This document shows, piece after piece, positions 2,059 through 17,242 of a stretch of DNA of 64,000 nt. Origin of the DNA: Flavobacteriales bacterium (lineage in GTDB: Bacteria > Bacteroidota > Bacteroidia > Flavobacteriales_D > Sanyastnellaceae); contig CANFLZ010000004.1 in NCBI GenBank assembly GCA_947448135.1, positions 1 to 64,000 on the forward strand. Direction: 5' to 3'. Both the position numbers and the translations under genes were made by a program. Every line of letters starts with the position of its first letter. The stretch's first letter is position 1. The notes under the pieces were generated by a model, which made no database searches, was not told where the DNA came from, and saw nothing but the letters and a program-made list of their open reading frames with translations.

Positions 2059-3346
2059 CAAGAACGGATGCTGAATGTTGTTGAATCTTGCACCAATCAG
2101 CAATTTGCCATCCTAAAATAGCCGCGATTTTGTTTTGCGCAGTAAATACGAGAATTTGTCTTTTGTAATAAGAAGCAACTTTTCTTTGGGTTAAAAAATC
2201 GGATACGTTCATTTGACCGGTCATTCCAAGCGGTTGAAAGACATCTCCATTTTCCCAAAAGCGAATTTCAAAAGGCGGTTGAATCGTATTGAAATCCAAT
2301 TGATGAATTCCAACTTGACCATAAAAAGAAGGGTCTGCATGTTCTTGCAGTTCAAATTCCCAACTTTCTCCAGCGTATTCAAATTCCTTGGGAAGTTCTT
2401 GTCCCTGCCATTTTTCAAATGGTTGTTCTTCTCGATTGGAGATTACCCATTGATTTTGGTCGAAGGTAATCACGTGATTTTGACTTGAAAAAAAAGTACT
2501 TCTTGGCATTTGAGGAAGGCAGGCAATTTTATCCATCATTTTGGACGAAAAACCAAGTGGCTTCAACCATCGATATAAAATCCATTCTGCGGGCAGCGAT
2601 GTGGGAATGGATGCCAAGGGAAGGAATTGTTTGTCGTCCATTCTCATCACGTTTTCCTTTATCCAATGGTCAGTAAACCAGGATAGCCAATCATTCTGTG
2701 ATGTCATGTTTTTTTGAAAATCAATGATGGCTTGGTCGGATGTTGGAAATCTTTTTTTGATTTCTGGAATAAACGCATTCCTCAACCAATTTCTATTGTA
2801 TTTGTTTTCAAAATTGCTTTGATCATCTCGAAATGGAATTTTGTTTTCTTGAACAAAATTTTCAATTTCAGTTCGATTGATGTGCAACATGGGTCGAATC
2901 AATCTTCCGCTTTTTTCCTCCATGCCTTGAAGGCCTTCTATGCTGTGACGAAGGAATTTGAGCCATTGACTTTCTTGCAAGTCTTGCAGGTGGTGCGCCA
3001 ATACAATCCAATCTGCGTTGATTTCATGTTGCACTTTTTCAAAAAAATCGAATCTGATTTTTCGTGCCCAATCTTGCGTATTTCCCGAATTGGATTCTTT
3101 TTCTACGCGATGAATGATCAATGGACACATCAGTTGGGTGCAATAATCATTTACATAGGTTTCATCCAAAAGACTACTTTCTTCTCTCAGTTGGTAGTTG
3201 ATGTGAATGGCTGTAACATCCAATCCCAATTGAACCATAGCAGTCAAAAGTGCCATACTATCTCTGCCGCCACTCACGCCAACAATGAATTTGGCTTTTT
3301 CCGTTCCAATGAGACGGGTGAGATTTTGTTTGAGTAGAAAAATCAT
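2015..3346 (-). CDS. tilS: tRNA(Ile)-lysidine synthase TilS
   Basis: TilS adds lysine to C34 of the CAU anticodon of tRNA-Ile2 so that it reads AUA. The N-terminus carries the PP-loop ATP-binding motif S-G-G-R-D-S near residue 25, followed by the HINYQLR segment and an AHHLQD segment typical of the family. The C-terminal part (about 330-443) matches the TilS C-terminal substrate-binding domain. I chose the ATG at 3346, which overlaps the pabB stop codon as ATGA and places the PP-loop at the usual distance from the N-terminus; this gives 443 residues. The 3' end overlaps convergent recX. Confidence 0.92.
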   Translation of the reverse strand: MIFLLKQNLTRLIGTEKAKFIVGVSGGRDSMALLTAMVQLGLDVTAIHINYQLREESSLLDETYVNDYCTQLMCPLIIHRVEKESNSGNTQDWARKIRFDFFEKVQHEINADWIVLAHHLQDLQESQWLKFLRHSIEGLQGMEEKSGRLIRPMLHINRTEIENFVQENKIPFRDDQSNFENKYNRNWLRNAFIPEIKKRFPTSDQAIIDFQKNMTSQNDWLSWFTDHWIKENVMRMDDKQFLPLASIPTSLPAEWILYRWLKPLGFSSKMMDKIACLPQMPRSTFFSSQNHVITFDQNQWVISNREEQPFEKWQGQELPKEFEYAGESWEFELQEHADPSFYGQVGIHQLDFNTIQPPFEIRFWENGDVFQPLGMTGQMNVSDFLTQRKVASYYKRQILVFTAQNKIAAILGWQIADWCKIQQHSASVLVIRQSLPISDPSLL

Positions 3347-4488
3347 TTGGACAATGGTTGTAATAAAGATTGTGCTTTGAGCCAACATTCCCTCCACTCA
3401 GATTCCATGTTTGACTGAAGCGTGATGGCACTTCCGATCCCAATTTTACCCAATTTCATTCGCTTGTTGTAATGGATACTTCTGATGATGACATTGAAAT
3501 CAAAGTTCCCATTGGGCTCAATATATCCTACACTTCCACTGTACCATCCTCGGGCTGATGATTCGAGACCATGCATCAATTCGACGGCCCTTTTTTTGGG
3601 GACGCCGGTCATTGAGCCCATTGGGAAAAGTGCTTCAAAAATGTCTTCTATTTTGGTTGATGCATTGATCTGACTTTCTACGGTGGAAATCATGTGATGG
3701 ATCTTGGGGAACGAATATATCGCACACAATTCACTGACAGTGACACTCGCTTTTTCCGCAATTTTACTCATGTCATTTCTCACGAGATCAACAATCATGA
3801 CGTTTTCATTTCGTTCCTTGGGATGATTTTGAAGGATGTTTTTTAATTGTTCATCTTCAGTGGCGTCCTTTCCTCTTTTGATGGTTCCTTTGATGGGTTG
3901 AGAGATAAGTCGACTTCCTATTTTTTGAATAAATCTCTCTGGAGACAAGCACAACAAATAGTGATCATCCCACTCCCAGTATACACCAAATGGTGTGGGA
4001 TTTTGCGCATATAGATATTTCCAAATCTCGTATGGTGATTCCCAATTTAATTGCCCTAATAATGAAGTGCAATAATTGGTTTCGTATATGTCCCCTCGGT
4101 GCAAATGAAAATTAATTTTTTGCAGTGCTGCTATATATTCATCTTCACTTTGAACTCCAGTAAAATCAGCTTGGTGTTGCTCACCGATTAACGGTTTTTT
4201 TTGCTCGGAATGGTAACATTCAATTTCTTTTGGAATTACCCAAATGCCTTTTGGCGCTTGCGTTAAATCTTCTGTAGTAGCGGGAATTTGTAAGAAACAA
4301 AAACCGCTTTCAAAGCTTGAAATCGAAAGAATCCATTTCCCTTTGTTCTTTTCAATCCAAGCTCCCAATAGTTGCCATTCTTGTATTTCTATTTTGTCAG
4401 AAAATACAAAGCAATCATCTACACCACTGGCGATGATGCCAATCCCGCGTTCTTGTGAATAAGGTATGTGACAAAAAAATGTATGCAT
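3343..4488 (-). CDS. pabB: Aminodeoxychorismate synthase component I (PabB-type)
   Basis: This 381-residue protein belongs to the chorismate-binding family. It contains P-I-K-G-T-I-K-R-G, the I-V-D-L-V-R-N-D segment and S-M-T-G-V-P-K-K near the C-terminus. The lysine in PIKGT is the residue that distinguishes PabB (which forms 4-amino-4-deoxychorismate for folate) from TrpE, which usually has alanine there. No PabA/TrpG amidotransferase gene is adjacent. The gene is translationally coupled to tilS (ATGA at 3343-3346). Its start lies only three bases beyond the T-run of the terminator of the preceding gene, leaving no ordinary promoter space. Confidence 0.88.
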   Translation of the reverse strand: MHTFFCHIPYSQERGIGIIASGVDDCFVFSDKIEIQEWQLLGAWIEKNKGKWILSISSFESGFCFLQIPATTEDLTQAPKGIWVIPKEIECYHSEQKKPLIGEQHQADFTGVQSEDEYIAALQKINFHLHRGDIYETNYCTSLLGQLNWESPYEIWKYLYAQNPTPFGVYWEWDDHYLLCLSPERFIQKIGSRLISQPIKGTIKRGKDATEDEQLKNILQNHPKERNENVMIVDLVRNDMSKIAEKASVTVSELCAIYSFPKIHHMISTVESQINASTKIEDIFEALFPMGSMTGVPKKRAVELMHGLESSARGWYSGSVGYIEPNGNFDFNVIIRSIHYNKRMKLGKIGIGSAITLQSNMESEWRECWLKAQSLLQPLSK

Positions 4489-4490
4489 GG

Positions 4491-4519
4491 CAAAAAAAAA
4501 CCCGCCTCGTGGCGGGTTT
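4491..4519 (-). terminator. Intrinsic terminator after the Bax-inhibitor-like gene
   Basis: A CCCGCC / GGCGGG stem (4501-4506 and 4511-4516) with a 4-base loop is followed on the minus strand by nine T residues (4492-4500). It ends the gene at 4539-5252. The T-run is directly followed by GCC and the pabB start codon. Confidence 0.88.
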
Positions 4520-4538
4520 AAAGATAGGAACGAAACTT

Positions 4539-5252
4539 TTAGTCGCGATTGTTTCCGAAAACACGCAACAAATACATGAAAAGATTGATGAAATCAAGAT
4601 ACAATGAAAGTGCACCCATGACAGCAAGTTTGGATGCCGTTGCAGTGCCGTACTCGATACCCATTCCGATTCTTTTGAGACGTTGAACATCATAAGCGGT
4701 GAGCCCCGTGAATACCAGTACACCAACGCAGCTGATAATGTAGTCCAATTGGCTGCTGTGCATGAACCAATTGACGACAGAAGCGATGATCATTCCGATT
4801 AGAGCCATCATCAATAAAGTGCCCATTTTAGAGAGGTCTGTGGAAGTGGTGAATCCTAAGATGGCCATTGTTCCAAACAAACCAGCGGTAATGAAGAAAA
4901 CTTTAGCAATGGTTCCGAAGTCGTAAATTAAAAAGATTGTACTCAAACTCATTCCCATGACAATTGAAAATCCAATGAATGTCAATGTCAAAGCCATTGG
5001 ACTCAATTTATTGAATCCAAAATTCATGACCAGGATGAAAATGAAAGGAGAAAACATTAATGCATACATCATCAAAGTTCCGCCGCTCATCAACATATTG
5101 AGCATAGTTTCTGAAAATTGAAATGCAGTGAATCCAGAAATTAAAAGTGCTACAGACATCAATCCGAAAACACGGTTCATAAATGCTTTAACACTGCTGG
5201 CAGAGCTAATCTCATCAATGGAGTAGTCTCTTTGGAAATCGGGTGTGTTCAT
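4539..5252 (-). CDS. Bax inhibitor-1/YccA family membrane protein
   Basis: This 237-residue protein has about seven hydrophobic segments from residue 25 to 230 and the BI-1 family pattern, including the late segment with G-L-T-A-Y-D-V-Q-R-L-K followed by L-S-L-Y-L-D-F-I-N-L-F. The family acts in the cytoplasmic membrane; in bacteria it is linked to FtsH-related quality control (YccA) or ion leak, and I cannot say which applies here. It is the last gene of the hldD-PTPS-folE operon (2-base gap after folE) and ends at a strong terminator. Confidence 0.9.
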   Translation of the reverse strand: MNTPDFQRDYSIDEISSASSVKAFMNRVFGLMSVALLISGFTAFQFSETMLNMLMSGGTLMMYALMFSPFIFILVMNFGFNKLSPMALTLTFIGFSIVMGMSLSTIFLIYDFGTIAKVFFITAGLFGTMAILGFTTSTDLSKMGTLLMMALIGMIIASVVNWFMHSSQLDYIISCVGVLVFTGLTAYDVQRLKRIGMGIEYGTATASKLAVMGALSLYLDFINLFMYLLRVFGNNRD

Positions 5253-5254
5253 TG

Positions 5255-5821
5255 TTATTTTAATTTATTTGCTATCAAATGTATAAATTCTTTTCGAGAT
5301 TTATCATCATTCAAGAAGGCTCCACTGAAGGCAGAGGTGGTTGTTAACGAATTTTGTTTATTCACTCCACGCATTTGCATGCACAAGTGCTGACACTCGA
5401 TCACAACAGCTACTCCGACAGGATTCAGTGTTTCTTGAATGCAATCTCTGATTTCAATGGTCAATCGCTCTTGCACTTGAAGGCGTCTCGCAAAAACATC
5501 TACAACACGGGGTAGTTTGCTCAATCCTACAATGGTTCCGTTGGGAATGTAGGCAATATGCGCTTTGCCAAAAAAGGGTAGCAGGTGGTGCTCACACAAG
5601 GAATAAACTTCGATGTCTTTCACCAAAACCATTTCAGAATAGGATTCCGCAAACATGGCCGAACGCAAAACTTCAGTGGCGTCTTGTTGATACCCTTGCG
5701 TTAGAAATTCGTACGCTTTGGAAACTCTTTCTGGCGTTTTAATCAACCCTTCACGATTGGGATCTTCACCGATTGCATTCAAGATAGTCTTAACTGCCGC
5801 TTCCATGTTATTCTCCGCCAT
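5255..5821 (-). CDS. folE: GTP cyclohydrolase I
   Basis: FolE converts GTP to 7,8-dihydroneopterin triphosphate. The zinc and active-site motifs are present: [18 protein letters not shown] around residue 76 and Q-H-L-C-M-x-M-R-G-V around residue 144, with the second zinc cysteine. I chose the ATG at 5821 (188 residues), overlapping the upstream PTPS stop by 14 bases; an ATG at 5806 is also possible. A longer extension upstream would lie inside PTPS. Placement directly behind a PTPS gene suggests that part of its product goes to a biopterin-type pathway as well as folate. Confidence 0.95.
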
Positions 5822-6233
5822 AATACTCGACGTAATTGTTTTCAGTTTCGTATAATTTGACGCAGTGCAATTGGCAACCTGACTGTTTAATTTCTTGCTC
5901 AATTCTTTCCCAAATGACGACAGCTAGATTTTCTGTTGAGGTTTTCATTCCAGCCAACCACGGAATGTCTAAATTTAAATTTCTATGGTCAATAACATCA
6001 GTAACTTTTGTTCTGATGATGGTACTGAGAACTTTTAAATCCATACAAAATCCTGTCTCTTCTTTAAGAGCTCCTTTTATGGTTACGAAAAGTTCGTAGT
6101 TGTGTCCATGCCAATTGGGATTGGAGCATTTTCCAAAGATCTCTAGATTTTTTTCGGCACTCCACTCCTCATGCCACAACTTGTGGGCAGCATTGAATCT
6201 TTCTCTTCTTGTTACGTATACAATTTTAGACAT
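5808..6233 (-). CDS. 6-pyruvoyltetrahydropterin synthase-type enzyme (PTPS/QueD family)
   Basis: This 141-residue protein has the zinc histidines F-N-A-A-H and H-G-H-N-Y, the catalytic cysteine in G-K-C-S-N-P-N, the D-H pair in V-I-D-H-R-N-L, and a C-terminal Y-E-T-E-N-N. The spacing C-x5-H-G-H, rather than the C-x3-H-G-H of classical QueD, matches true PTPS that makes 6-pyruvoyl-tetrahydropterin from dihydroneopterin triphosphate. Automated annotation would probably say 6-carboxytetrahydropterin synthase. It sits three bases after hldD and overlaps folE, so it is co-transcribed with the enzyme that makes its substrate. Confidence 0.88.
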
Positions 6234-6236
6234 GGC

Positions 6237-7205
6237 TTAATAAATTTTTAGATTTTGTAAAAGGTAATTTTTGACGTAATCGTTAACGCCTTCCTCCAAA
6301 GAGTGGAATCCATGGGGATAACCAGCTTGAAGGAGTTTATTCATATTGGCTTCGGTGAAATATTGGTATTTATCCCTGATGTCAACGGGTGTGTCGATAA
6401 ACGAAATGTTCTCTTCTTTGCCCATTGCTTGAAAAGTATTTTTGGTCAAGTCCAAAAATGTTCTCGCCTTTCCACTTCCGAGGTTGAAAATCCCAGATTG
6501 TTTTCTTTCTTCCATCAACCAGACACATACATTGGCAACATCTTTCACGTAAACGAAATCACGCATTTGTCCACCATCCGTATAGGCGGGATTGTGGGAA
6601 CGAAATAGTTTCATTTCGCCATTGGCTTTGATTTGGTTGAATGAATGCCAAACAACTGAAGCCATTCGTCCTTTGTGATACTCATTGGGTCCGTATACAT
6701 TGAAAAACTTTAAACCAGCCCAGAAAAAGGGAGTTGTGTTTTGTTGCAAAACCCATTTATCAAAGTCGTTTTTAGAATCACCATATGGATTGAGTGGTTT
6801 TAATGATGGGATGACGTCATGATCATCATTGTAACCGAGACTTCCATCACCATAGGTCGCAGCGGATGAAGCATAAAGCATCGGAATTGCGTATTTCACA
6901 CAAAGATTCCAAACTTGTTTTGAGTATGCGACGTTGAGCTCGTCAAAAATGGCCTTATTGAATTCTGTGGTATCTGTTCTTGCGCCGAGATGAAAAATAA
7001 AATCGATTTGATTTTCATTTTTTTCGATGAACTGAAAGAGTTCTTTTCTGTCTAAGAGTGCGGTGAATTTTTTGGTTTCATAATTCACTTTTCTATCTTC
7101 TCTTGAAAAGTCATCTACCAGCACCAAATCAAAGTAACGCAGTTCGTTCAACCTCGCTACTAAAGCGGAGGCAATGAATCCTGCTGCACCGGTGACTATG
7201 ATCAT
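6237..7205 (-). CDS. hldD: ADP-L-glycero-D-manno-heptose 6-epimerase
   Basis: This short-chain dehydrogenase-type epimerase completes ADP-heptose synthesis for the LPS core. The N-terminus has the NAD(P)-binding V-T-G-A-A-G-F-I-A motif. The active-site S-S-A-A-T-Y-G serine region and the Y-G-D-S-K tyrosine-lysine pair follow near residues 115-145. The family-specific F-F-N-V-Y-G-P-N-E segment is present near residue 170. I chose the ATG at 7205 (322 residues), which places the Rossmann motif at the N-terminus; an upstream extension would run into mfd. Mfd ends 20 bases upstream, so hldD may also be read by transcription coming from mfd. Confidence 0.93.
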   Translation of the reverse strand: MIIVTGAAGFIASALVARLNELRYFDLVLVDDFSREDRKVNYETKKFTALLDRKELFQFIEKNENQIDFIFHLGARTDTTEFNKAIFDELNVAYSKQVWNLCVKYAIPMLYASSAATYGDGSLGYNDDHDVIPSLKPLNPYGDSKNDFDKWVLQQNTTPFFWAGLKFFNVYGPNEYHKGRMASVVWHSFNQIKANGEMKLFRSHNPAYTDGGQMRDFVYVKDVANVCVWLMEERKQSGIFNLGSGKARTFLDLTKNTFQAMGKEENISFIDTPVDIRDKYQYFTEANMNKLLQAGYPHGFHSLEEGVNDYVKNYLLQNLKIY

Positions 7206-7225
7206 GTTATTAGTTTTTTGCGAAT

Positions 7226-10200
7226 TTACACTGAAAAGGGTGAATCTATCTTTTGCAGCCATTTCAGCGCTTTGTCGACAGAGGTGATGTTTTGGAAACT
7301 CATTCTCAAAGACCCGTCCTTTTCGTACATTTTTACTTCTTGGCTATTCTTTTTAAGGAATTCCAAAACCTTGGTAAACGCTTCGCTTTGGTAAAAAGGA
7401 GAATCTTCCTTGGAAATAAAATAGGCAATCATTTTGCCACTTTTCATGATCAGCTTTTCCATTCCCAGCGCATTTGCTGTCCATCGAATACGCATGGTAT
7501 TGATGAGCGCTTCTGTAGGAGCTGGGATGGGACCAAATCGATCCATTAAATTTTTAATAAATGTTTCCATTTGGGTTTCATTCTCCAGATCGTCCATCGC
7601 TTTGTACAAGGCTATTCGCTCCGTGATGTCGTTGACATAGTCATCTGGAATGTGTAATTCCAAATCTGTTTCGAGGGTTGTTTCTTTTACAAATTTGGAT
7701 ACCCGATCCAACTCTTCTTGATAGAGTTCTTGAAAATGTTCCTGCTTCAATTCTTCCAAAGCTTCGGACAAAATCTTTTGGTAGGTTTCCAATCCCATTT
7801 CATTGATGAAGCCACTTTGATCGCCTCCCAAAAGATCGCCGGCACCTCGGATGTCAAGGTCGCGCATGGCAATGTGCAGGCCACTTCCGAGGTCACTGAA
7901 TTGTTCAATGGCCGTTAATCTTTTTCTGGTATCATCGGGCATGGAGTGTATGGGCGGAGAAATCAAATAGCAAAAAGCTCGTTTGTTATTTCGTCCTACT
8001 CTTCCGCGTAATTGATGCAAATCGCTCATGCCAAATTGGTGAGCATTGTTGATGATAATGGTGTTGGCATTGGAAATATCAATACCACTTTCTACAATGG
8101 AAGTACTGACCAAAACATCAAAGGCGCCCTCAATAAAATTGGTCATGACTTCTTCCAGTTGATCACTTTTCATTTGGCCATGGCCTATTCCTACTCGAGC
8201 ATCTGGGCAGAGTCGTTGTATCATACCTGCAACTTCTTGCAGATTTTGAATGCGATTATTGATGAAGAAAACCTGGCCACCTCTTTGAATTTCGTAACTA
8301 ATGGCATCGCGGATGGCTTCTTCATCCAATGTGATGATTTGGGTATGAATAGGATGTCGGTTGGGAGGAGGAGTTTGAATGATACTCAAATCACGCGCTC
8401 CCATCAATGAGAATTGTAAAGTTCTTGGAATTGGAGTGGCCGTTAATGTGAGTGTATCCACATTGGCCTTCATTGTTTTTAATTTGTCTTTTGCTGCAAC
8501 TCCAAATTTCTGTTCTTCGTCGATAATCAGTAATCCAAGATCTTTGAATTTCACATCTTTCCCGATGATGGAATGCGTTCCAATCAATATATCAATTTGG
8601 CCTTTGGACAATTTTTCCAAGGTGGCTTTTTTCTCTTTGGTAGATTTGAATCGACTGATGTGATCGACAGTGACTGGAAAATCTTTGAATCTATTCGCGA
8701 AACTTTTGTGATGTTGCAAAGCCAAAATCGTTGTTGGAACCAGCACCGCGACCTGTTTTCCATCTGTTGCGGCTTTGAATGCTGCACGCATGGCGACTTC
8801 TGTTTTTCCAAATCCAACATCGCCGCATACCAATCGATCCATAGGCGCTTGCGATTCCATGTCTTGTTTTACCGCAGTAATGGCCTTGGCTTGATCGGGT
8901 GTGTCTTCATACATGAAAGAAGCTTCTAATTCCATTTGCATGTAGCCATCGGGCATGAAGGCAAAGCCTTTGGTGGTTTTTCTTTTCGCGTATAATTTGA
9001 TCAAATCAAAAGCGATGGTTTTGACGCGCGCCTTGGTTTTGTTTTTTAGGTTCTGCCAAGCAGGACTTCCCAGTCGGTCCATGGTGGGTGCCGTGCCATC
9101 TTTTCCGCTGAATTTACTGATTCGGTGCAAGCTGTGAATGCTCACATACAAGGTGTCACCACCTTTGTAGACCAAACGAATGGCCTCTTGCTCTTTGCCA
9201 TTGACATCAATTTTTTGAAGTCCCGCAAATTGACCCACACCGTGATCAATGTGCACCACAAAATCACCCGGTTGCAAAGACAAAATTTCTTTGAGTGTCA
9301 AAGCTTCTTTGCTTTTTTGAAAACCTTCTTTTAACCGGAAACGGTGGTATCTCTCGAAGATTTGGTGATCGGTGTAAAGGGCTACTTTTTGTTCGTTGTC
9401 GACAAAACCTTCACTGAGTTCAATTAGGTGTGGGGTGTATTGAACGACAATTTGTTTGTCCTCAAAAATTTGGTGCAAGCGTTCCAATTGTTTGGCTTGA
9501 CCTGCTGACACTACTTGATCGTAATCTTCTTTTGATTTTTGAATGATATGCTGACTCAGTAAATCAAAGTTTTTACTGAACGAGGGTTGCGGTGTCATTT
9601 GAAACTCAACACCAGGAGCTTCGATAAAAAGTGCCGTAGGGCCCATTTCAATGAGTCTTCTGGATTTTAAAAGTCGGTACCAATCGGTGCTATGGGCGTA
9701 TAGTTCTTCGGGTGATTTGTGTTTGATCACACCACCCAATTTGTCAAATTGAACAATGGCTCTTTCAAGTTCCTTTTCCAGAATCTCAGGGGCGTTTGTA
9801 CATTCAATGGCCCAGAAAATTGCGTCGTTGGGAACGAACTCTAAAAAGTTGATGGTGGATTCGATTTGCCCTTCATCTTGCACATTGGGGACAATCGTGG
9901 CACGTTGCATCATCCCTGAGCTGAGCTGATCAACGGGGTCAAACTTTCGAATACTGTCTATGGTTTCGCCAAAGAGCTCGATTCGATAGGGGTGATCGTA
10001 TGAAAAAGAAAAGACATCAATGATGCCACCACGAACGGCATATTGTCCGGGTTCATACACGAAGTCAACCTTGTGGAAGTTGTACTCCTGAAAAATTTCG
10101 TCGACAATTTCAGGGTTCAAAGTTGTTCCAATTTCAACTTCAAAAGTCTTTTGTTCTAAGGAGGATAAACCGATCACTTTTTCAGCGATAGCTTCGGGAT

Positions 10201-10591
10201 AAGTGACTACCCATTGCCCCTGTGGTTTTTTACGGATGCTATTCAAGACCTCTGTTCGCATGGCGACATTGGCATTGTCAACCGTCTCTACTTGATATGG
10301 AACACGGGCACTTCTTGGAAAGAAGAGGATGTTCTTTTGCTCCAAAGATTCTTTTTGATAGTTCTGGATGTTTTCCAGATCATTTAAAAAGTAGGCTGCT
10401 TTTTCTTTGTCTTCTAGGACAAATACATGCGTTTTGTTGTTGCTGTTGGAAATGGCATTGGCGATCAATGCTTTTGCGGAGCCAACTATTCCTCGAAGGC
10501 GTAATTTGGCACCTTCAGCAGACAGAGTCTCCGAAATATTTTTTTCTTGAATCCAATCGTAGTAACGATTGTAAAATGGTGCGTTCGACAC
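7226..10591 (-). CDS. mfd: Transcription-repair coupling factor
   Basis: Mfd is the ATP-dependent translocase that removes stalled RNA polymerase and recruits UvrA. At 1121 residues it is full length. The N-terminal UvrB-like region is followed by the RNA-polymerase-interaction domain, with G-D-F-V-V-H-I-D-H-G-V-G-Q-F near residue 440. The RecG-like motor has Walker A G-D-V-G-F-G-K-T-E, Walker B I-I-D-E-E-Q-K-F-G and motif III T-A-T-P-I-P-R-T. The C-terminal D7 domain follows. The only start codon in a suitable place is GTG at 10591, since no ATG occurs until well inside the domain. A weak TATCTTTA box lies at 10609-10616. Confidence 0.96.
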   Translation of the reverse strand: MSNAPFYNRYYDWIQEKNISETLSAEGAKLRLRGIVGSAKALIANAISNSNNKTHVFVLEDKEKAAYFLNDLENIQNYQKESLEQKNILFFPRSARVPYQVETVDNANVAMRTEVLNSIRKKPQGQWVVTYPEAIAEKVIGLSSLEQKTFEVEIGTTLNPEIVDEIFQEYNFHKVDFVYEPGQYAVRGGIIDVFSFSYDHPYRIELFGETIDSIRKFDPVDQLSSGMMQRATIVPNVQDEGQIESTINFLEFVPNDAIFWAIECTNAPEILEKELERAIVQFDKLGGVIKHKSPEELYAHSTDWYRLLKSRRLIEMGPTALFIEAPGVEFQMTPQPSFSKNFDLLSQHIIQKSKEDYDQVVSAGQAKQLERLHQIFEDKQIVVQYTPHLIELSEGFVDNEQKVALYTDHQIFERYHRFRLKEGFQKSKEALTLKEILSLQPGDFVVHIDHGVGQFAGLQKIDVNGKEQEAIRLVYKGGDTLYVSIHSLHRISKFSGKDGTAPTMDRLGSPAWQNLKNKTKARVKTIAFDLIKLYAKRKTTKGFAFMPDGYMQMELEASFMYEDTPDQAKAITAVKQDMESQAPMDRLVCGDVGFGKTEVAMRAAFKAATDGKQVAVLVPTTILALQHHKSFANRFKDFPVTVDHISRFKSTKEKKATLEKLSKGQIDILIGTHSIIGKDVKFKDLGLLIIDEEQKFGVAAKDKLKTMKANVDTLTLTATPIPRTLQFSLMGARDLSIIQTPPPNRHPIHTQIITLDEEAIRDAISYEIQRGGQVFFINNRIQNLQEVAGMIQRLCPDARVGIGHGQMKSDQLEEVMTNFIEGAFDVLVSTSIVESGIDISNANTIIINNAHQFGMSDLHQLRGRVGRNNKRAFCYLISPPIHSMPDDTRKRLTAIEQFSDLGSGLHIAMRDLDIRGAGDLLGGDQSGFINEMGLETYQKILSEALEELKQEHFQELYQEELDRVSKFVKETTLETDLELHIPDDYVNDITERIALYKAMDDLENETQMETFIKNLMDRFGPIPAPTEALINTMRIRWTANALGMEKLIMKSGKMIAYFISKEDSPFYQSEAFTKVLEFLKKNSQEVKMYEKDGSLRMSFQNITSVDKALKWLQKIDSPFSV

Positions 10592-10607
10592 GAATCTAAA
10601 TTGTGTC

Positions 10608-10616
10608 GTAAAGATA
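10608..10616 (-). promoter_or_regulatory. Possible -7 promoter box for mfd
   Basis: The minus strand reads TATCTTTAC, which differs from TAnnTTTG only in the last base of the box. The same 9-mer occurs upstream of sucA (13412-13420) and glmM (54997-55005). It is 16 bases from the mfd GTG start. Confidence 0.35.
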
Positions 10617-10640
10617 GTTCAGCAATTACAAAACAAGGTG

Positions 10641-10672
10641 TCAAAAAAAAGACCGGAAGTCCGGTCTTTTTA
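10641..10672 (-). terminator. Intrinsic terminator after sucA
   Basis: A GACCGG / CCGGTC stem (10651-10656, 10661-10666) extended by A-T pairs is followed on the minus strand by eight T residues. It ends the sucA transcript and separates it from mfd. The A/T flanks would also let it work on the plus strand. Confidence 0.88.
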
Positions 10673-10677
10673 TAAAT

Positions 10678-13386
10678 TTATTGGAAGAGTTGGTCCATGA
10701 CCTGCTTCATCCTGAGTTCGTGCATTTTACTGGATCCAGCAGCTGGAGAGGCTTGTGCTGGGTAGGCGACTACATCGATGTTGGTTTTTCTCATCATGCG
10801 CATGATAAAGCTCCAAGCTCCCATGTTTTCTGGCTCTTCTTGTGCCCAAATCAATTCGACATTTTTTCCGTACCCTTTCAATACTTTGTCCAATGCCTTT
10901 TGTGGGAATGGGTATAGTTGTTCCAAACGTACAAATGCCATGTCTTTCACTTTTCTCGTTTCACGCTCTTCACACATTTCATAGTACATCTTTCCAGTAC
11001 AAAGAACCACTTTTTTCACTTTCTTCTTGTCCACAGCATTGTCATCCATGACCATTTCGAAAGTCCCTTTGGCCATATCTTTCAAGCTGCTAACCGCTTT
11101 TGGATGACGCAACAATTTTTTGGGTGTGAAAACAATCAATGGTTTGCGGAAAGGTTGCTTCACTTGTTTACGCAACAAATGGAAGAAATTAGCGGGTGTC
11201 GTGATGTCACATACTTGCATATTTTCTTCAGCGCACAATTGTAAGAATCTCTCCATACGACCTGAGCTGTGCTCAGAACCTTGGCCTTCATAACCGTGTG
11301 GCAAGAACATAACCAAGCCATTCATGCTTCCCCACTTGTCTTCAGCGGCACTGATGAATTGGTCAATCATGATTTGCGCTCCGTTGTTGAAATCACCAAA
11401 TTGCGCTTCCCAAATGGTCAATCCATTGGGAGTTCCAAATGCATAACCATAATCATAACCCAACACACCATATTCACTCAACAAAGAGTTGAAAATGCGC
11501 AATGGAGCTTGTTTGTCTGAGAGTAAATTGAGTGGGATAAATTCTTTTTCTTGGTCTTCATCAGTCTTCACCACCGCATGACGGTGAGAGAAAGTTCCGC
11601 GTTCAACATCTTGACCGGAAATACGAATGGGATGACCTTCTTCTAAGAGAGTAGCGTATGCCAAAAGCTCTCCCATCGCCCAATCCAACTGATCATTCTT
11701 GATCATGTTGATGCGATCTTCAAAAACTTTTTCTGTTTTTCTAAAGAGCTTTTCTCCACTGGGGAGCGTAGACATTTTGATGCCTAAGTCTTTTAATTTT
11801 TTTTCGGCAACAGCAGTTTTGGGTGCAGATTCAAAATCTTCCGATGTTGCGAATCTTACGTCTTTCCATGTCTCTTCCAAGAAATGTTTGACGTAAGCTA
11901 CACTTTTGGTTTTGGCTTTTTCTAAACTAATATCCAAATGACCTTCAAAAGATTTGCGAATCGTTTCTGCTTCTTCTTCTGTGATATTTCCTTCTTGTGT
12001 TAGTTGCTTTAAATACAACTCACGAAGACTCAAATGTGATGCAATTTGTTTGTACAAAGATGGCTGGGTAAATTTGGGCTCGTCGCCTTCATTGTGTCCG
12101 TATTTGCGATATCCCAACAAGTCAATGAAAATATCCATGTTGTACTTTTCACGGTACTCCAAGGCCCATTGCATGGCTGTAATAACGGCTTCTACATCAT
12201 CGGCATTCACATGAAATACAGGACACAAAGTTGTCTTGGCCACGTCAGTACAGTAGGTAGAAGAACGTGCATCCAAATAATTGGTGGTAAAGCCCACTTG
12301 GTTGTTGGTAACAATATGAATTGTACCTCCAGTTCTATATCCGTCAAGCAACGCCATTTGCACCACTTCGTATACGATACCTTGGCCTGCAATGGCCGCA
12401 TCGCCATGAATCAAGATGGGGACGATTTTCTTTTCGTCATGGATGTAATGGTCGATTTTGGCACGTGTCAATCCTTCGACAACGGGGTTTACCGCTTCCA
12501 AGTGGGAAGGGTTAGGGCAAAGGGTTACGTGAACGTTGTGTCCATTCACCGTAATGTCTCGTGAATATCCAAGGTGGTATTTTACGTCACCATCCATGTT
12601 GCCTTCAAATTCAACGCCGGCGAATTCACGAAAAACTTCTTCTTGTGGTTTTTCAAGGATGTTTGTCAAGATATTCAATCGTCCACGGTGGGCCATACCG
12701 ATAACAAATTCTTCGACCCCCATTTCAGCGCCTTTTTTCACGAGGTAATCCATTGCTGGAACCACCGCTTCGCAACCTTCGACGCTAAAACGTTTTTGAC
12801 CCACGAATTTCTTGTGGATGTATTGCTCGAACAAAGAAGCTTTCGAAGTCATTTCAAAAATGTTCTTCTTTTCTTCTCTGGAGTATTTGGGTTTGTTTAC
12901 TGCTTCAAACTTGGAGCGCAACCATTCTACACGTTCTGGCTCACGGATATACATGAACTCCACACCAATGCTTTGGCAATAAGAGTTTTCCAAATGTGCA
13001 ATGATATCCTTCAATTTAGCATCGCCAATTCCGATATCGGTTCCAGCATGGAAAGTTTCTTCCAAATCAGCGGCAGTCAGACCAAAATTCTCAATGGCCA
13101 AAGTTGGGCTGTATTTTCTGCGTTCACGAACCGGATTGGTTTTGGTGAACAAATGTCCTCGTGTTCGGTAGGCGTTGATGAGGCTGATAACCTTAAATTC
13201 CTTGGAGGTTACCGCATTCATGCGGCTGCCATCCGGAAGAACTGGATAGCTCTCGTTTTGGAACTCAAATCCCTCAAAGAATCTTTTCCAAGAGATGTCC
13301 AAGCTATCGGGGTCTTGCTTGTATTGTTGATACAATGCGTCTATCGTCTGGATATCGGCATTTCCCAAAAATTGATCTGAACTCAT
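10678..13386 (-). CDS. sucA: 2-oxoglutarate dehydrogenase E1 component
   Basis: This TPP-dependent E1 decarboxylates 2-oxoglutarate in the TCA cycle. The 902 residues are near the family length. Visible signatures are the short N-terminal segment ending in W-K-R-F-F-E-G-F, the G-M-A-H-R-G-R-L-N-I-L segment near 230, G-D-A-A-I-A-G-Q-G near 325 with the following N-N-Q-V-G-F-T, and the transketolase-like segment G-Y-E-G-Q-G-S-E-H-S-S-G-R near 730. No E2 gene follows it; the E2 gene about 2.5 kb away is on the other strand and looks like a different subtype. Confidence 0.96.
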   Translation of the reverse strand: MSSDQFLGNADIQTIDALYQQYKQDPDSLDISWKRFFEGFEFQNESYPVLPDGSRMNAVTSKEFKVISLINAYRTRGHLFTKTNPVRERRKYSPTLAIENFGLTAADLEETFHAGTDIGIGDAKLKDIIAHLENSYCQSIGVEFMYIREPERVEWLRSKFEAVNKPKYSREEKKNIFEMTSKASLFEQYIHKKFVGQKRFSVEGCEAVVPAMDYLVKKGAEMGVEEFVIGMAHRGRLNILTNILEKPQEEVFREFAGVEFEGNMDGDVKYHLGYSRDITVNGHNVHVTLCPNPSHLEAVNPVVEGLTRAKIDHYIHDEKKIVPILIHGDAAIAGQGIVYEVVQMALLDGYRTGGTIHIVTNNQVGFTTNYLDARSSTYCTDVAKTTLCPVFHVNADDVEAVITAMQWALEYREKYNMDIFIDLLGYRKYGHNEGDEPKFTQPSLYKQIASHLSLRELYLKQLTQEGNITEEEAETIRKSFEGHLDISLEKAKTKSVAYVKHFLEETWKDVRFATSEDFESAPKTAVAEKKLKDLGIKMSTLPSGEKLFRKTEKVFEDRINMIKNDQLDWAMGELLAYATLLEEGHPIRISGQDVERGTFSHRHAVVKTDEDQEKEFIPLNLLSDKQAPLRIFNSLLSEYGVLGYDYGYAFGTPNGLTIWEAQFGDFNNGAQIMIDQFISAAEDKWGSMNGLVMFLPHGYEGQGSEHSSGRMERFLQLCAEENMQVCDITTPANFFHLLRKQVKQPFRKPLIVFTPKKLLRHPKAVSSLKDMAKGTFEMVMDDNAVDKKKVKKVVLCTGKMYYEMCEERETRKVKDMAFVRLEQLYPFPQKALDKVLKGYGKNVELIWAQEEPENMGAWSFIMRMMRKTNIDVVAYPAQASPAAGSSKMHELRMKQVMDQLFQ

Positions 13387-13442
13387 GCTTTACTTTTCTG
13401 CAAATTCGCGGGTAAAGATAAGGTCAGATAAAACGGAGCGGT

Positions 13443-15296
13443 CTATATTTTTTCAGAAAGTTCTAACCAACGCATCTCAAGGTTATTCAGCTCTTCTATT
13501 ACCTTGGAAAGGGCTTCTGAGACGGACATTAATCGATCATGTTGGTCGAGTACTGTTTGTAACTCAGATTCCAATTTCGACTTTTGAAGTTCCAATTCGG
13601 GCATGCGTTTTTCGATTTGCTCCCATTCGTATTTCTCTTTGAAACTTAGTTTTTTTTGCCCTCCATCCTTTGAAGCATCTTCCTTGATCTCTGCTTTGCT
13701 TGCAGCTTTTTTATTTTCCAGGGCAATGTTGTCTTGGTCATCACGGAACTGCTGGTAGGATCCCAAAATATCACGGACATTACCCTCTCCATCGAGAACA
13801 AATAGGTGGTCGACGAGTTTGTCCAAGAAGTAACGATCATGCGAAACAATAACCAAGCAGCCGGGATACGATTGCAAATATTCTTCTAAGGCGGCGAGGG
13901 TAAAGACATCCAGATCATTGGTGGGCTCATCCAATATGAGGAAGTTGGGATTTTTCATCAAGATGAGTAGCAGTTGCAAACGCTTTCTCTCCCCACCGCT
14001 CAGGGAATCCACATAATTGAAGTGCATGGATTTTGGGAATAAGAATCGCTCTAACATCTGCGCTGCAGTGATGGTTCTGCCCTTGGTCAGAGGAATGAAT
14101 TCAGCAATATCTCTTACAGCCTCTATCAGTCGCTGACCTGGTTTGAGAATTTCCATGTTTTGGCGGTAGTACCCCATGACAACGGTATCTCCGACAATCA
14201 CTTTCCCTCCATCTGGTTCTTCGCTGAGGGTCATCAATTTGAGCAGGGTGGTTTTTCCCGCCCCATTGGGTCCTACCAAGCCTACGCGTTCGCCGGTTTT
14301 AAAAACATAATCCCAGCCATTGAGTACTTTTTTCTCTCCCCAATGTTTTTTAACGCGATGAAACTCGACAATCTTACTTCCCAATCTGCTCATGTTAATC
14401 TCTGGTGAAAGCTCCGCGGCATCTGGATTTTTTCTTATCGATTCTTTCAGTTCGTTGAAGCGATCCATCCGGCTCTTGCTTTTCACCGTGCGTGCTCTAG
14501 GCATTGTACGTGCCCACACAAGCTCTCGACGAAAGAGGTTCATCTGCTTGTCTTGTGTGGCTTGTTCGAGTGCCTCTCTCTCTGCTTTTTTCTCCAAGTA
14601 ATAGCTGAAATTTCCTTTGTACTTGTACAATTGACCATTTTCTAATTCGAGGATTTCATCGGTGATGTTTTCCAAAAAGTAGCGATCATGCGTCACCATG
14701 AAAAGGGTCATGTGAGATTGCGTCAAGAATTTCTCCAGCCATTCAATCATGTCTAAGTCCAAGTGATTGGTTGGCTCATCGAGCAATAAAAAGTCAGGTT
14801 CTTCCACCAACACTTTTGCCAATGCAACGCGTCTTTGCTGGCCTCCACTGAGCTGTCCAGCAGGCGTATTCCATTGGTGCAATTCCAAGGCGCCTAGAAT
14901 TTGTTTCATTTTGGCCTCGTATTCCCAGGCTCCGCTCGCATCCATTTCAGCCATGGGTTGATCCAATGGAAGGTCGTTGGCTAATGCTTCTTCATAGGCC
15001 GCAATCGCTTTGCTCATATGGTTTTGCGACAAAAGCACATTTTCAAGAATCGACTTTTTGGGGTCGAGAAAAGGATTTTGTTCGAGGTAGCTAACACGAA
15101 CTTCTTTGTTGTAAATTACTTTTCCATCATCGGGAGAGTCTTTTCCAAAAAGGATATTCATCAAGGTCGTTTTTCCTGATCCATTGCGGGCGAGTAGCGC
15201 TACTTTCTGACCTTTTTCGATACCGAATTGAAGATTTTGAAAAAGTTGACGAACGCCGAAACGTTTGGAAAGATTTTCGACTGATAAGTAATTCAT
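13443..15296 (-). CDS. ABC-F family ATPase (Uup/EttA-like)
   Basis: This soluble protein of 617 residues has two ATP-binding cassettes and no membrane segments. Cassette one has the Walker A G-S-G-K-T-T near residue 40 and signature L-S-G-G-Q-Q-R-R. Cassette two has G-A-G-K-T-T near 350 and signature L-S-G-G-E-R-K-R. A charged linker lies between them and a coiled-coil tail follows residue 530, as in Uup. ABC-F proteins act on ribosomes or nucleic acids; the tail makes Uup-like the best guess. The ATG at 15296 lies four bases after an exact TATTTTTG box. Confidence 0.93.
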   Translation of the reverse strand: MNYLSVENLSKRFGVRQLFQNLQFGIEKGQKVALLARNGSGKTTLMNILFGKDSPDDGKVIYNKEVRVSYLEQNPFLDPKKSILENVLLSQNHMSKAIAAYEEALANDLPLDQPMAEMDASGAWEYEAKMKQILGALELHQWNTPAGQLSGGQQRRVALAKVLVEEPDFLLLDEPTNHLDLDMIEWLEKFLTQSHMTLFMVTHDRYFLENITDEILELENGQLYKYKGNFSYYLEKKAEREALEQATQDKQMNLFRRELVWARTMPRARTVKSKSRMDRFNELKESIRKNPDAAELSPEINMSRLGSKIVEFHRVKKHWGEKKVLNGWDYVFKTGERVGLVGPNGAGKTTLLKLMTLSEEPDGGKVIVGDTVVMGYYRQNMEILKPGQRLIEAVRDIAEFIPLTKGRTITAAQMLERFLFPKSMHFNYVDSLSGGERKRLQLLLILMKNPNFLILDEPTNDLDVFTLAALEEYLQSYPGCLVIVSHDRYFLDKLVDHLFVLDGEGNVRDILGSYQQFRDDQDNIALENKKAASKAEIKEDASKDGGQKKLSFKEKYEWEQIEKRMPELELQKSKLESELQTVLDQHDRLMSVSEALSKVIEELNNLEMRWLELSEKI

Positions 15297-15300
15297 GGCG

Positions 15301-15308
15301 CAAAAATA
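15301..15308 (-). promoter_or_regulatory. -7 promoter box of the ABC-F gene, 4 bases from the start codon
   Basis: The minus strand reads TATTTTTG, then CGCC and the ATG at 15296. With the usual distance from the -7 box to the transcription start, the transcript would begin at or next to the start codon. Confidence 0.55.
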
Positions 15309-15332
15309 GGCCATTGGATTACCTTCGTACGG

Positions 15333-15800
15333 ATGAAAAATTTCCGATTGCTAAAAATGTCTGAAATGACCGCCTTGGAATGGCACAGGGTATTGGCATT
15401 GCGGGCGCAGGTTTTTGTAGTGGAACAAAATTGTCCCTATCAAGATCCTGATGGAAAGGATGTTGTCTCGTATCATATTTTGATGGAGAGCGGAGAAGAG
15501 TTGGTGGCTTATGCGCGGCTGGTTCCCCCGGGTGTCAGTTATTCTGAAGCCGCTATTGGACGAGTTGTCACGTCCTCTTCCGTTCGAGGAATGGGATGGG
15601 GAAAAGAATTGATGCAAATTGCAATTGAGCAGACCCAAAAGAAATTTGGTGTGAATCAAATATGCATTTCAGCGCAATCGTATCTACTCCAATTTTATCA
15701 ATCATTTGGATTTGTTGCAGAAGGAGAGGAGTATTTGGAGGATGAAATTCCACATCGGAAGATGAGGCTCTATTCCTCAGAGGGCAATCTAGGCGAATAA
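15333..15800 (+). CDS. GNAT family N-acetyltransferase, ElaA-like
   Basis: The 155-residue protein matches the ElaA branch of GNAT. It has an R-A-Q-V-F-V-V-E-Q-N-C-P-Y-Q-D-P-D-G-like segment at residues 24-43. The acetyl-CoA-binding V-R-G-M-G-W-G-K-E-L-M stretch is near 88-98 and a Q-F-Y-Q-S-F-G-F segment near 124. The substrate is unknown. The start follows a TACCTTCG box (15320-15327) by five bases. The last three codons and the stop lie inside the first copy of a palindromic repeat (15788 onward), so the repeat appears to have set the C-terminus. Confidence 0.88.
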   Translation: MKNFRLLKMSEMTALEWHRVLALRAQVFVVEQNCPYQDPDGKDVVSYHILMESGEELVAYARLVPPGVSYSEAAIGRVVTSSSVRGMGWGKELMQIAIEQTQKKFGVNQICISAQSYLLQFYQSFGFVAEGEEYLEDEIPHRKMRLYSSEGNLGE

Positions 15801-15885
15801 TTGTTCGTCCTTGAATTGGTTCTAGGGGCGAGTGATCATTGGCTCTTGGTAGGTTCTCTGGGCGAATAATTATTCGCCCTTTGGG
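15788..15885. repeat. Three tandem ~34-bp palindromic repeats
   Basis: Three units begin at about 15788, 15821 and 15855, each starting TCTAGG or TCTCTGG and holding a palindrome. Copy 3 is a perfect 20-bp palindrome, GGGCGAATAATTATTCGCCC (15860-15879). Copy 1 (15791-15810) is AGGCGAATAATTGTTCGTCC. Copy 2 (about 15826-15845) is more diverged, GGGCGAGTGATCATTGGCTC. The spacing of 33-34 bp is regular. The block fills the gap between elaA and the E2 gene and reaches into the elaA stop codon. It resembles REP-type or MITE-type interspersed palindromes. Copies elsewhere in the genome cannot be seen from this window. Confidence 0.75.
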
Positions 15886-15898
15886 GTCTGATTTTGCT

Positions 15899-15906
15899 TA
15901 TTTTTG
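15899..15906 (+). promoter_or_regulatory. -7 promoter box of the E2 gene
   Basis: TATTTTTG, an exact TAnnTTTG match, lies 10 bases before the ATG at 15917 and just downstream of the palindromic repeat block. It supports the 15917 start over an in-frame extension through the repeats. Confidence 0.55.
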
Positions 15907-15916
15907 CACACAACTT

Positions 15917-17242
15917 ATGGCACAGATTGAATTACTACTTCCCAAAATGGGAGAGAGTGTTGCGGAAGCAACCATTATCAAGTGGGTAAAAAGCGAAGGC
16001 GAGGCTGTCAAAGCCGACGAGCCTATAATTGAAATTGCTACTGATAAGGTAGACAGTGAGGTCCCATCTCCAGAAGATGGAGTCTTGTTGAAATGCTTGG
16101 TCAAAGAAGGTGATGTTGTGCAAGTGGGTCAGCCCATTGCCATCATTCAAACCGGCGCGGCTGAAGCACCTGTAGTTGCGGTAGCTCCTGTTGCTGCAAC
16201 CACTGCACCAGCAGCAGTCCCTATGGCTGATATTCCTTTTGTTCCAGCTGCTGAAGCGTCTGCACCAATTGTTTCTGGCGATCGCTTTTATTCTCCTTTG
16301 GTGAAAAATATGGCCAAGTCAGAAGGGATTACTCAGGCAGAATTGGATGCAATTCCAGGAACTGGGCAAGGTGGACGTGTCACCAAGGATGATTTGAAAA
16401 ACTATTTATCTACCCGTGGTCAGAAGCCAGCGGTTAGTGCACCAGCCCCTGTAGCAACTGCTCCTAGCGCGCCAGCTCCTGAAGCAGCTCCTGCTAAGGA
16501 AGCACCTAAGAAAGCTTCGATCAGTGTGAATGGTAATGATGAGATTGTTCAAATGGACCGTATGCGCAAGTTGATTGCGGATCACATGGTCATGAGCAAA
16601 CATGTGTCTCCTCACGTAACCAGTTATGTGGAGGCAGATATGACCAATGTGGTGATGTGGAGAGAGAAAGTGAAGAAGAGTTTTGAGACGAAAGAAAAAA
16701 CAAAATTGACATTTACGCCTATATTTATCGAAGCAGTAGCCAAGGCTATCAAAGATTTCCCTGGAGTCAACGCTTCAGTGGATGGTGATAAAATTATTTT
16801 ACGCGGGGATATCAATATCGGTATGGCAACAGCATTGCCTTCAGGAAACTTGATTGTACCCGTTATCAAAAATGCGGATCAATTGAATTTAGTGGGTATA
16901 GCCAAGAAGGTAAATGACTTGGCTGATCGCGCTAGAAACAACAAACTTTCTCCCGACGAAATTCAAGGTGGAACCTACACCTTGACCAACGTAGGTTCGT
17001 TTGGAAACGTGATGGGAACCCCCATTATCAATCAACCTCAAGTAGCAATATTGGCTGTTGGTGCCATTCGCAAAAAGCCGGCGGTAATCGAAACTCCAGC
17101 TGGAGATTTTATTGGAATCCGTCACATGATGTTCTTATCTCACAGCTATGATCACAGAATTGTCGACGGTGCTTTGGGTGGAATGTTTGTAAGACGCGTT
17201 GCAGATTATTTGGAAAATTGGGATGTAAATCGCGATATTTGA
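15917..17242 (+). CDS. 2-oxo acid dehydrogenase E2 (dihydrolipoyl acyltransferase)
   Basis: The 441-residue protein has an N-terminal lipoyl domain with the lipoylated lysine in T-D-K-V-D-S-E-V (residue 44), then an Ala/Pro-rich linker. The E1/E3-binding domain is near 120-160 (S-P-L-V-x-x-x-A-K, ending G-R-V-T-K-D-D-L), followed by a second Ala/Pro linker. The catalytic domain ends in S-H-S-Y-D-H-R-I-V-D-G-A. The lipoyl and catalytic motifs resemble branched-chain or general acyltransferases more than SucB, so it may not be the partner of the SucA in this window. It probably forms its own transcript. Confidence 0.9.
   Translation: MAQIELLLPKMGESVAEATIIKWVKSEGEAVKADEPIIEIATDKVDSEVPSPEDGVLLKCLVKEGDVVQVGQPIAIIQTGAAEAPVVAVAPVAATTAPAAVPMADIPFVPAAEASAPIVSGDRFYSPLVKNMAKSEGITQAELDAIPGTGQGGRVTKDDLKNYLSTRGQKPAVSAPAPVATAPSAPAPEAAPAKEAPKKASISVNGNDEIVQMDRMRKLIADHMVMSKHVSPHVTSYVEADMTNVVMWREKVKKSFETKEKTKLTFTPIFIEAVAKAIKDFPGVNASVDGDKIILRGDINIGMATALPSGNLIVPVIKNADQLNLVGIAKKVNDLADRARNNKLSPDEIQGGTYTLTNVGSFGNVMGTPIINQPQVAILAVGAIRKKPAVIETPAGDFIGIRHMMFLSHSYDHRIVDGALGGMFVRRVADYLENWDVNRDI

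Follow-up and report, generated by a model that had tools for sequence, protein, structure and literature searches.

The palindromic array between elaA and odhB

In the window, i.e., the whole 64,000-nucleotide stretch of DNA analyzed, three palindromic units lie in the gap between an elaA-like gene (15333–15800, + strand) and an odhB-like gene (15917–17242, + strand; to the right of the junction described below), both taken from the list of open reading frames (ORFs). The former encodes a GNAT acetyltransferase matching PF13673 (2e-13) and PRK10314 (1.3e-32, below the cut-off of that model), while the latter presumably encodes a dihydrolipoamide succinyltransferase. The cores of the units, all on the + strand, are copy 1 (15791–15810, AGGCGAATAATTGTTCGTCC; 17/20 positions identical to copy 3, three changes from a perfect palindrome), copy 2 (15826–15845, GGGCGAGTGATCATTGGCTC; 15/20, five changes), and copy 3 (15860–15879, GGGCGAATAATTATTCGCCC), a perfect 20-bp palindrome and one of the eight exact copies in the genome. 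Start-to-start distances are 35 and 34 bp, and the units are ordered head to tail, every core being itself symmetrical. The regular units of about 34 bp and the decay toward the middle copy, both described in an earlier note on this DNA, were thus confirmed.

Allowing up to three mismatches, the core matched at two places in the window and at none in 100 dinucleotide shuffles of it; because of this shuffled-window control, chance is excluded as the source of the array. For the exact core, approximately 1.6e-6 copies would be expected in the 2.5-Mb genome, given the base composition of the window, and eight were observed. The match between copies 2 and 3 exceeded that of gap shuffles (p 0.00015), and the spacers TTGAATTGGTTCTAG and TTGGTAGGTTCTCT showed a weak likeness (permutation p 0.018). 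Tandem Repeats Finder at score 30 called no array at this site. Copy 2 is preceded by CTAG, one base off GTAG, and carries one paired change, from A-T to G-C, that leaves its stem intact.

Copy 1 contains the TAA stop codon (15798–15800, + strand) of the elaA-like gene and encodes the end of the ORF, CTA GGC GAA TAA (L-G-E-stop), as the earlier note had claimed. Beyond the common K-M-R, the C-terminus of the protein reads LYSSEGNLGE in this genome, and MQSV (G003), RRG (G004), RVEK (G002), RIEK (G001), and RRESRG (G006) in its relatives. In none of the five relatives with elaA was the repeat present at the 3′ end of the gene or L-G-E at the C-terminus; the genome of G005 (60% complete) gave no elaA match.

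On the other side, 19 bp past copy 3 and as previously noted, the array directly precedes a box upstream of odhB (TATTTTTG, 15899–15906, + strand), which we liken to the promoter consensus TAnnTTTG. The box is kept upstream of odhB in all seven genomes of the genus, in two of them in the form TACTTTTG. Since the units are regularly spaced (34–35 bp) and a conserved promoter-like box follows them directly, they could be imagined as three sites for a regulator of odhB. This is barely credible and the operator reading was rejected, since the repeat is missing before odhB in 6/6 relatives; the palindrome is moreover found elsewhere inside genes and around a RAYT (REP-associated tyrosine transposase) gene.

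Dispersed copies of the palindrome

The genome that contains the window (G000) is a draft of 2.5 Mb in 103 contigs and is 96.4% complete. The eight exact copies of the 20-bp core were distributed over five contigs, and 14 copies within three mismatches were found on contigs C3, C4, C5, C21, C24, and C85, with no match to the reversed-pattern control in either search. As in REPs (repetitive extragenic palindromes), the palindrome therefore occupies many unrelated places, though its copy number is low. The stem GGGCGAAT with any centre was present at 16 places (reversed control 0), the centre being AATT in eight of them and TGAC, TGAT, or GGGC in the other eight. By eye, GTAG was found before the stem in none of the eight exact AATT copies on either strand (0/16 sides) and in 7/8 of the non-AATT copies, the eighth having GCAG. 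The 16 stem copies do not represent 16 independent cases because they are clustered in five AATT loci and five others.

The earlier note had suggested a REP/MITE-like element, and the dispersed copies agree with the REP part of that proposal. Inspection by eye of the dispersed copies revealed no common flanks or target-site duplications beyond the 20-bp core; the MITE reading was rejected, as neither common termini nor direct target duplications were seen outside this core. Of the two patterns that the same note had named as speaking against it, a palindrome confined to this and orthologous places and an identical C-terminus in relatives without the repeat, neither was found, because the palindrome occurs at unrelated places and the 3′ ends of elaA in the relatives lack both repeat and C-terminus. 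Some of the places are nevertheless inherited: a copy on C5, in frame within a long ORF, and, in a shorter form, the copy on C3 are common to G000 and G003.

The C3 locus is the 3′ end of mdh (G000:C3:55250–55301), where G000 has two palindrome copies 32 bp apart and G003 one shorter copy, which indicates local copy gain. In G001, G002, G004, and G005, this position is taken by an unrelated terminator-like hairpin without the palindrome, so that G000 has the palindrome, followed by T6, where four relatives have their ordinary terminator-like hairpin. An RNA role may likewise be considered for the array in the window, which would then be kept at the end of elaA as a terminator or as a hairpin that slows translation, insulating odhB. 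All three copies are predicted to fold (−7.5, −10.9, and −12.7 kcal/mol), the changes in copies 1 and 2 other than the paired one mostly produce G-U pairs on the + strand, and ribosomes in E. coli are reported to stall at REPs located no more than 15 nt from a stop codon (PMC12306157). We nonetheless regard such a role as unlikely. The array contained no terminator-like site, defined as a hairpin plus T tract, and an intrinsic terminator was rejected on that criterion; no long T tract follows any of the three copies, no Rfam family matched the array, copies 1 and 2 are decaying, and the bias toward G-U or compensatory changes stems from a handful of positions.

Two further loci of G000 were observed. 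At G000:C81:391 (L122), a GTAG-tagged REP supplies the TAG stop to an ORF of at least 129 residues, and from G000:C85:5797 (L019 from 2298) one exact copy is followed by a 33-bp tandem array of half palindromes up to the contig end. REP-like palindromes were also seen in frame in ORFs resembling secreted proteins with sorting tails (presumably of type 9 secretion) in G004 (L126, L128, L129, and L132), G002 (L140, L144, and L147), G005 (L135), G000:C5 (L016), and G003 (L022), making this a recurrent site in the genus.

A RAYT gene surrounded by the palindrome

A REP-type transposase, which the earlier note had suggested looking for, is encoded at C21:13738–14283. The 182-residue protein has the HUH motif (MPDHVH) and the Y motif (YIRNNP) of Y1 transposases, and it matched NF047646 (REP-associated tyrosine transposase; E 1.2e-9, below the curated cut-off) and, weakly, Y1_Tnp PF01797 (E 0.0038, below the cut-off). 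A profile of four RAYTs found PDB 4er8 (TnpArep) at 1.2e-4 over 39 positions. This was the only RAYT detected in G000 (protein search at 1e-10, family model at 1e-3). The same repeats lie on either side of the gene: of the 14 near-exact palindromes, seven are found at C21:13533–14696, two upstream and five downstream, the latter forming a 98-bp tandem array, and the TAG stop of the gene adjoins the first of these five. The units of the array in the window are probably REP-like palindromes and non-autonomous partners of this RAYT, which may have moved these copies. The G000 RAYT, like that of G002, lies near pdxH. On contig C40 of G002, the RAYT is located between a whole gene that we take to be pdxH-like and a partial second copy of the 3′ end of that gene (L142 750–906 and 2132–2852).

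Among 100 genomes, the exact 20-mer was found in five, namely G000 itself (eight copies) and G003, G012, G025, and G049 (one each), the exact stem in 14, including 6/7 of the genus, and RAYT relatives in 25. The flanks of the RAYTs of G002 (C40; same genus) and G084 (C31; same order) carry the same stem (GGGCGAAT/ATTCGCCC) with the centres TGAT/TGAC and TGCA rather than AATT, and some of these palindromes are in frame inside the transposase ORF. In another genus, at G012:C10:6442 and 7207 (L151), the same stems are central in longer inverted repeats (GTAAGGGCGAAT...ATTCGCCCTTAC), apparently a different element. In named genomes, a RAYT scan with a single-protein query gave no match, and at least 116 stretches contained the identical 20-mer. 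Among the matches listed (80 loci with 82 copies), the stem was preceded by GTAG on one or both strands in 73 copies and on both in 46, and the hosts included Bacteroidota, Chloroflexi, Geomonas, Spirochaetia, Omnitrophota, a cyanobacterium, and others. These sequences identify the 20-mer as the core of a widespread GTAG-tagged REP, tagged as it is in 73/82 copies among the matches listed, across phyla.

The untagged state of the eight exact copies in G000 was considered together with the RAYT itself. According to Quentin (2018; PMC6006769), W94, Q95, and R104 are conserved where GTAG is recognized, Q being a GTAG-contact residue in E. coli, and a 2021 study (PMC8266576) reports that the need for GTAG differs among systems. 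Guide residues were surveyed at 30 RAYT loci, of which seven had no readable ORF and 23 were counted (L070 and L081 read by eye); five weaker loci found by HMM only, without readable ORF, were left out of the count. The motif was W-Q in 19/23 and W-L in the C21 protein. At least one GT[AG]G-footed hairpin occurred within 700 bp of 10/19 W-Q RAYTs vs. 0/4 non-W-Q RAYTs; three of the latter four lacked hairpins altogether, and around several W-Q RAYTs all hairpins were untagged. A link between the guide residue of a RAYT and the tag in its repeats is suggestive only, and the W-L of the C21 RAYT is weak evidence that fits the missing GTAG. A bolder reading is that the Gln to Leu change at the GTAG-contact residue and the loss of the GTAG guide from the repeats went together, giving a tagless REP system in which the bare 20-bp palindrome would be the whole substrate and less specific cutting and rejoining would drive deletions like the 14-kb one described below; we consider this improbable.

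Missing 14 kb at the array

In G004, elaA and odhB share a contig and a strand and are separated by 14 kb containing eight ORFs. Comparison of this 18.5-kb region with G000 gave only two matches, C4:13337–15768 and C4:15890–17922; the flanks matched at 75–76%, and no match in G000 was found for the 14,027 bases between them (G004 query 2440–16466). The limits of the junction were set by comparison with nine stretches from six relatives: homology on the left stops at 15764–15768 (five relatives) and resumes on the right at 15880–15891 (six relatives). Besides the three units, the stretch without counterpart in the relatives (15769–15887) contains about 22 bp to their left and about 8 bp to their right. 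In the nearest relative, G003, elaA is followed by an ORF, and odhB preceded by a large ORF, of the same kinds as in G004, on two contigs, which indicates loss in the G000 lineage rather than gain elsewhere. No remnant repeat was found at elaA or odhB of G003. An assembly error at the repeat in the draft G000 is possible; had the contig been mis-joined, the 14 kb would be expected on other contigs, and G000 contained no match to it.

The elaA-odhB block is prone to change, given a loss in G001 and extra ORFs in G005. Part of the block is missing from G001 through a separate, smaller loss that kept the old intergenic DNA and shows no repeat, so that deletions of this kind do not require one. 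Two additional small ORFs precede odhB in G005, situated between a large ORF and odhB (G005:C1, L167 2561–3200); these resemble a nucleotidyltransferase/HEPN toxin-antitoxin pair.

The array is most likely the site or a by-product of the deletion, and the deletion itself probably used the repeats. Palindromes partnered with the HUH enzyme encoded on C21 would have come to lie between elaA and odhB in the G000 lineage, and a deletion of about 14 kb with both ends at the array would have brought the 3′ end of elaA next to the odhB promoter core. Recombination between a copy beside elaA and another beside odhB, or an exchange of strands of the RAYT type between them, would leave only the array. 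Repeats at both ends of the lost segment should result in one array without old intergenic DNA, which is the pattern seen. After the deletion, the repeat would have supplied elaA with its final codons and stop, and expression of elaA or odhB might have been affected. The earlier proposal that the element "was duplicated here" captured only part of the story, having missed that the array lies at a deletion junction.

As the main rival account, the 14 kb could have been lost first, by ordinary illegitimate recombination, with a REP-like element landing later in the elaA-odhB gap and being duplicated there. In its favor are the repeat-free loss in this block of G001 and the preference of REPs for gene 3′ ends described by Di Nocera (2013; PMC3733652). 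We are doubtful of this order of events, since older intergenic sequence beside the array amounts to only about 22 and 8 bp, which random later insertion does not predict. The earlier interpretation as a whole was partly supported, and the observation on which it was built was confirmed.

Comparison with known systems

The locus is one local instance of an established type of bacterial repeat, not a new control switch. We found nothing in the literature on this elaA-odhB repeat locus; REP-supplied stop codons, REPs inside genes, and REPs flanking RAYTs are already in print (PMC3733652; PMC6006769). What the locus adds is a gene-block deletion whose junction coincides exactly with a REP-like array and which altered the surroundings of a core metabolic gene, and a natural pair for testing guide recognition, in which a RAYT with a changed guide residue accompanies repeats without the guide tag. 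The REP-like reading stands, having failed a single test, that for the GTAG tag. Two observations stand against it: the eight exact copies have no such tag, and the dispersed copies are alike in the 20-bp core only.

The GTAG-tagged REP superfamily, as characterized by Di Nocera (2013; PMC3733652), resembles the repeats studied here in its 20-bp palindromic stem with G-C pairs at the foot, its small tandem groups with flanking DNA, its position at gene 3′ ends, its termini, which often supply TAG stops, its copies inside ORFs, and its association with RAYTs. It differs in that the exact AATT-centre copies in G000 are tagless and number only eight, and in that the stop is a TAA from the stem here and a TAG from the tag there.

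The TnpAREP subclass 2.4 REPtrons of Bacteroidetes and Cyanobacteria, in which Quentin (2018; PMC6006769) describes long and double-foot REPs as well as REPs lying in frame within the transposase gene, share the HUH and YIxNNP motifs and the palindromes that flank this gene on either side. The in-frame repeats inside the transposase ORFs of G002 and G084 correspond to this description, and in other genomes the tagged 20-mer often takes the form of a double-foot REP. The feature at 948–1838 of the G002 locus (G002:C40:5400–8500, L142) is as described for this subclass in the same paper. The G000 RAYT differs by lacking the W-Q motif of the subclass, having W-L instead, and its repeats are without feet. 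REPINs and BIMEs (PMC3116915; PMC2817692) are likewise clustered, RAYT-associated palindromes, but are composed of REPs in alternating or inverted orientation, whereas here symmetrical cores follow each other head to tail.
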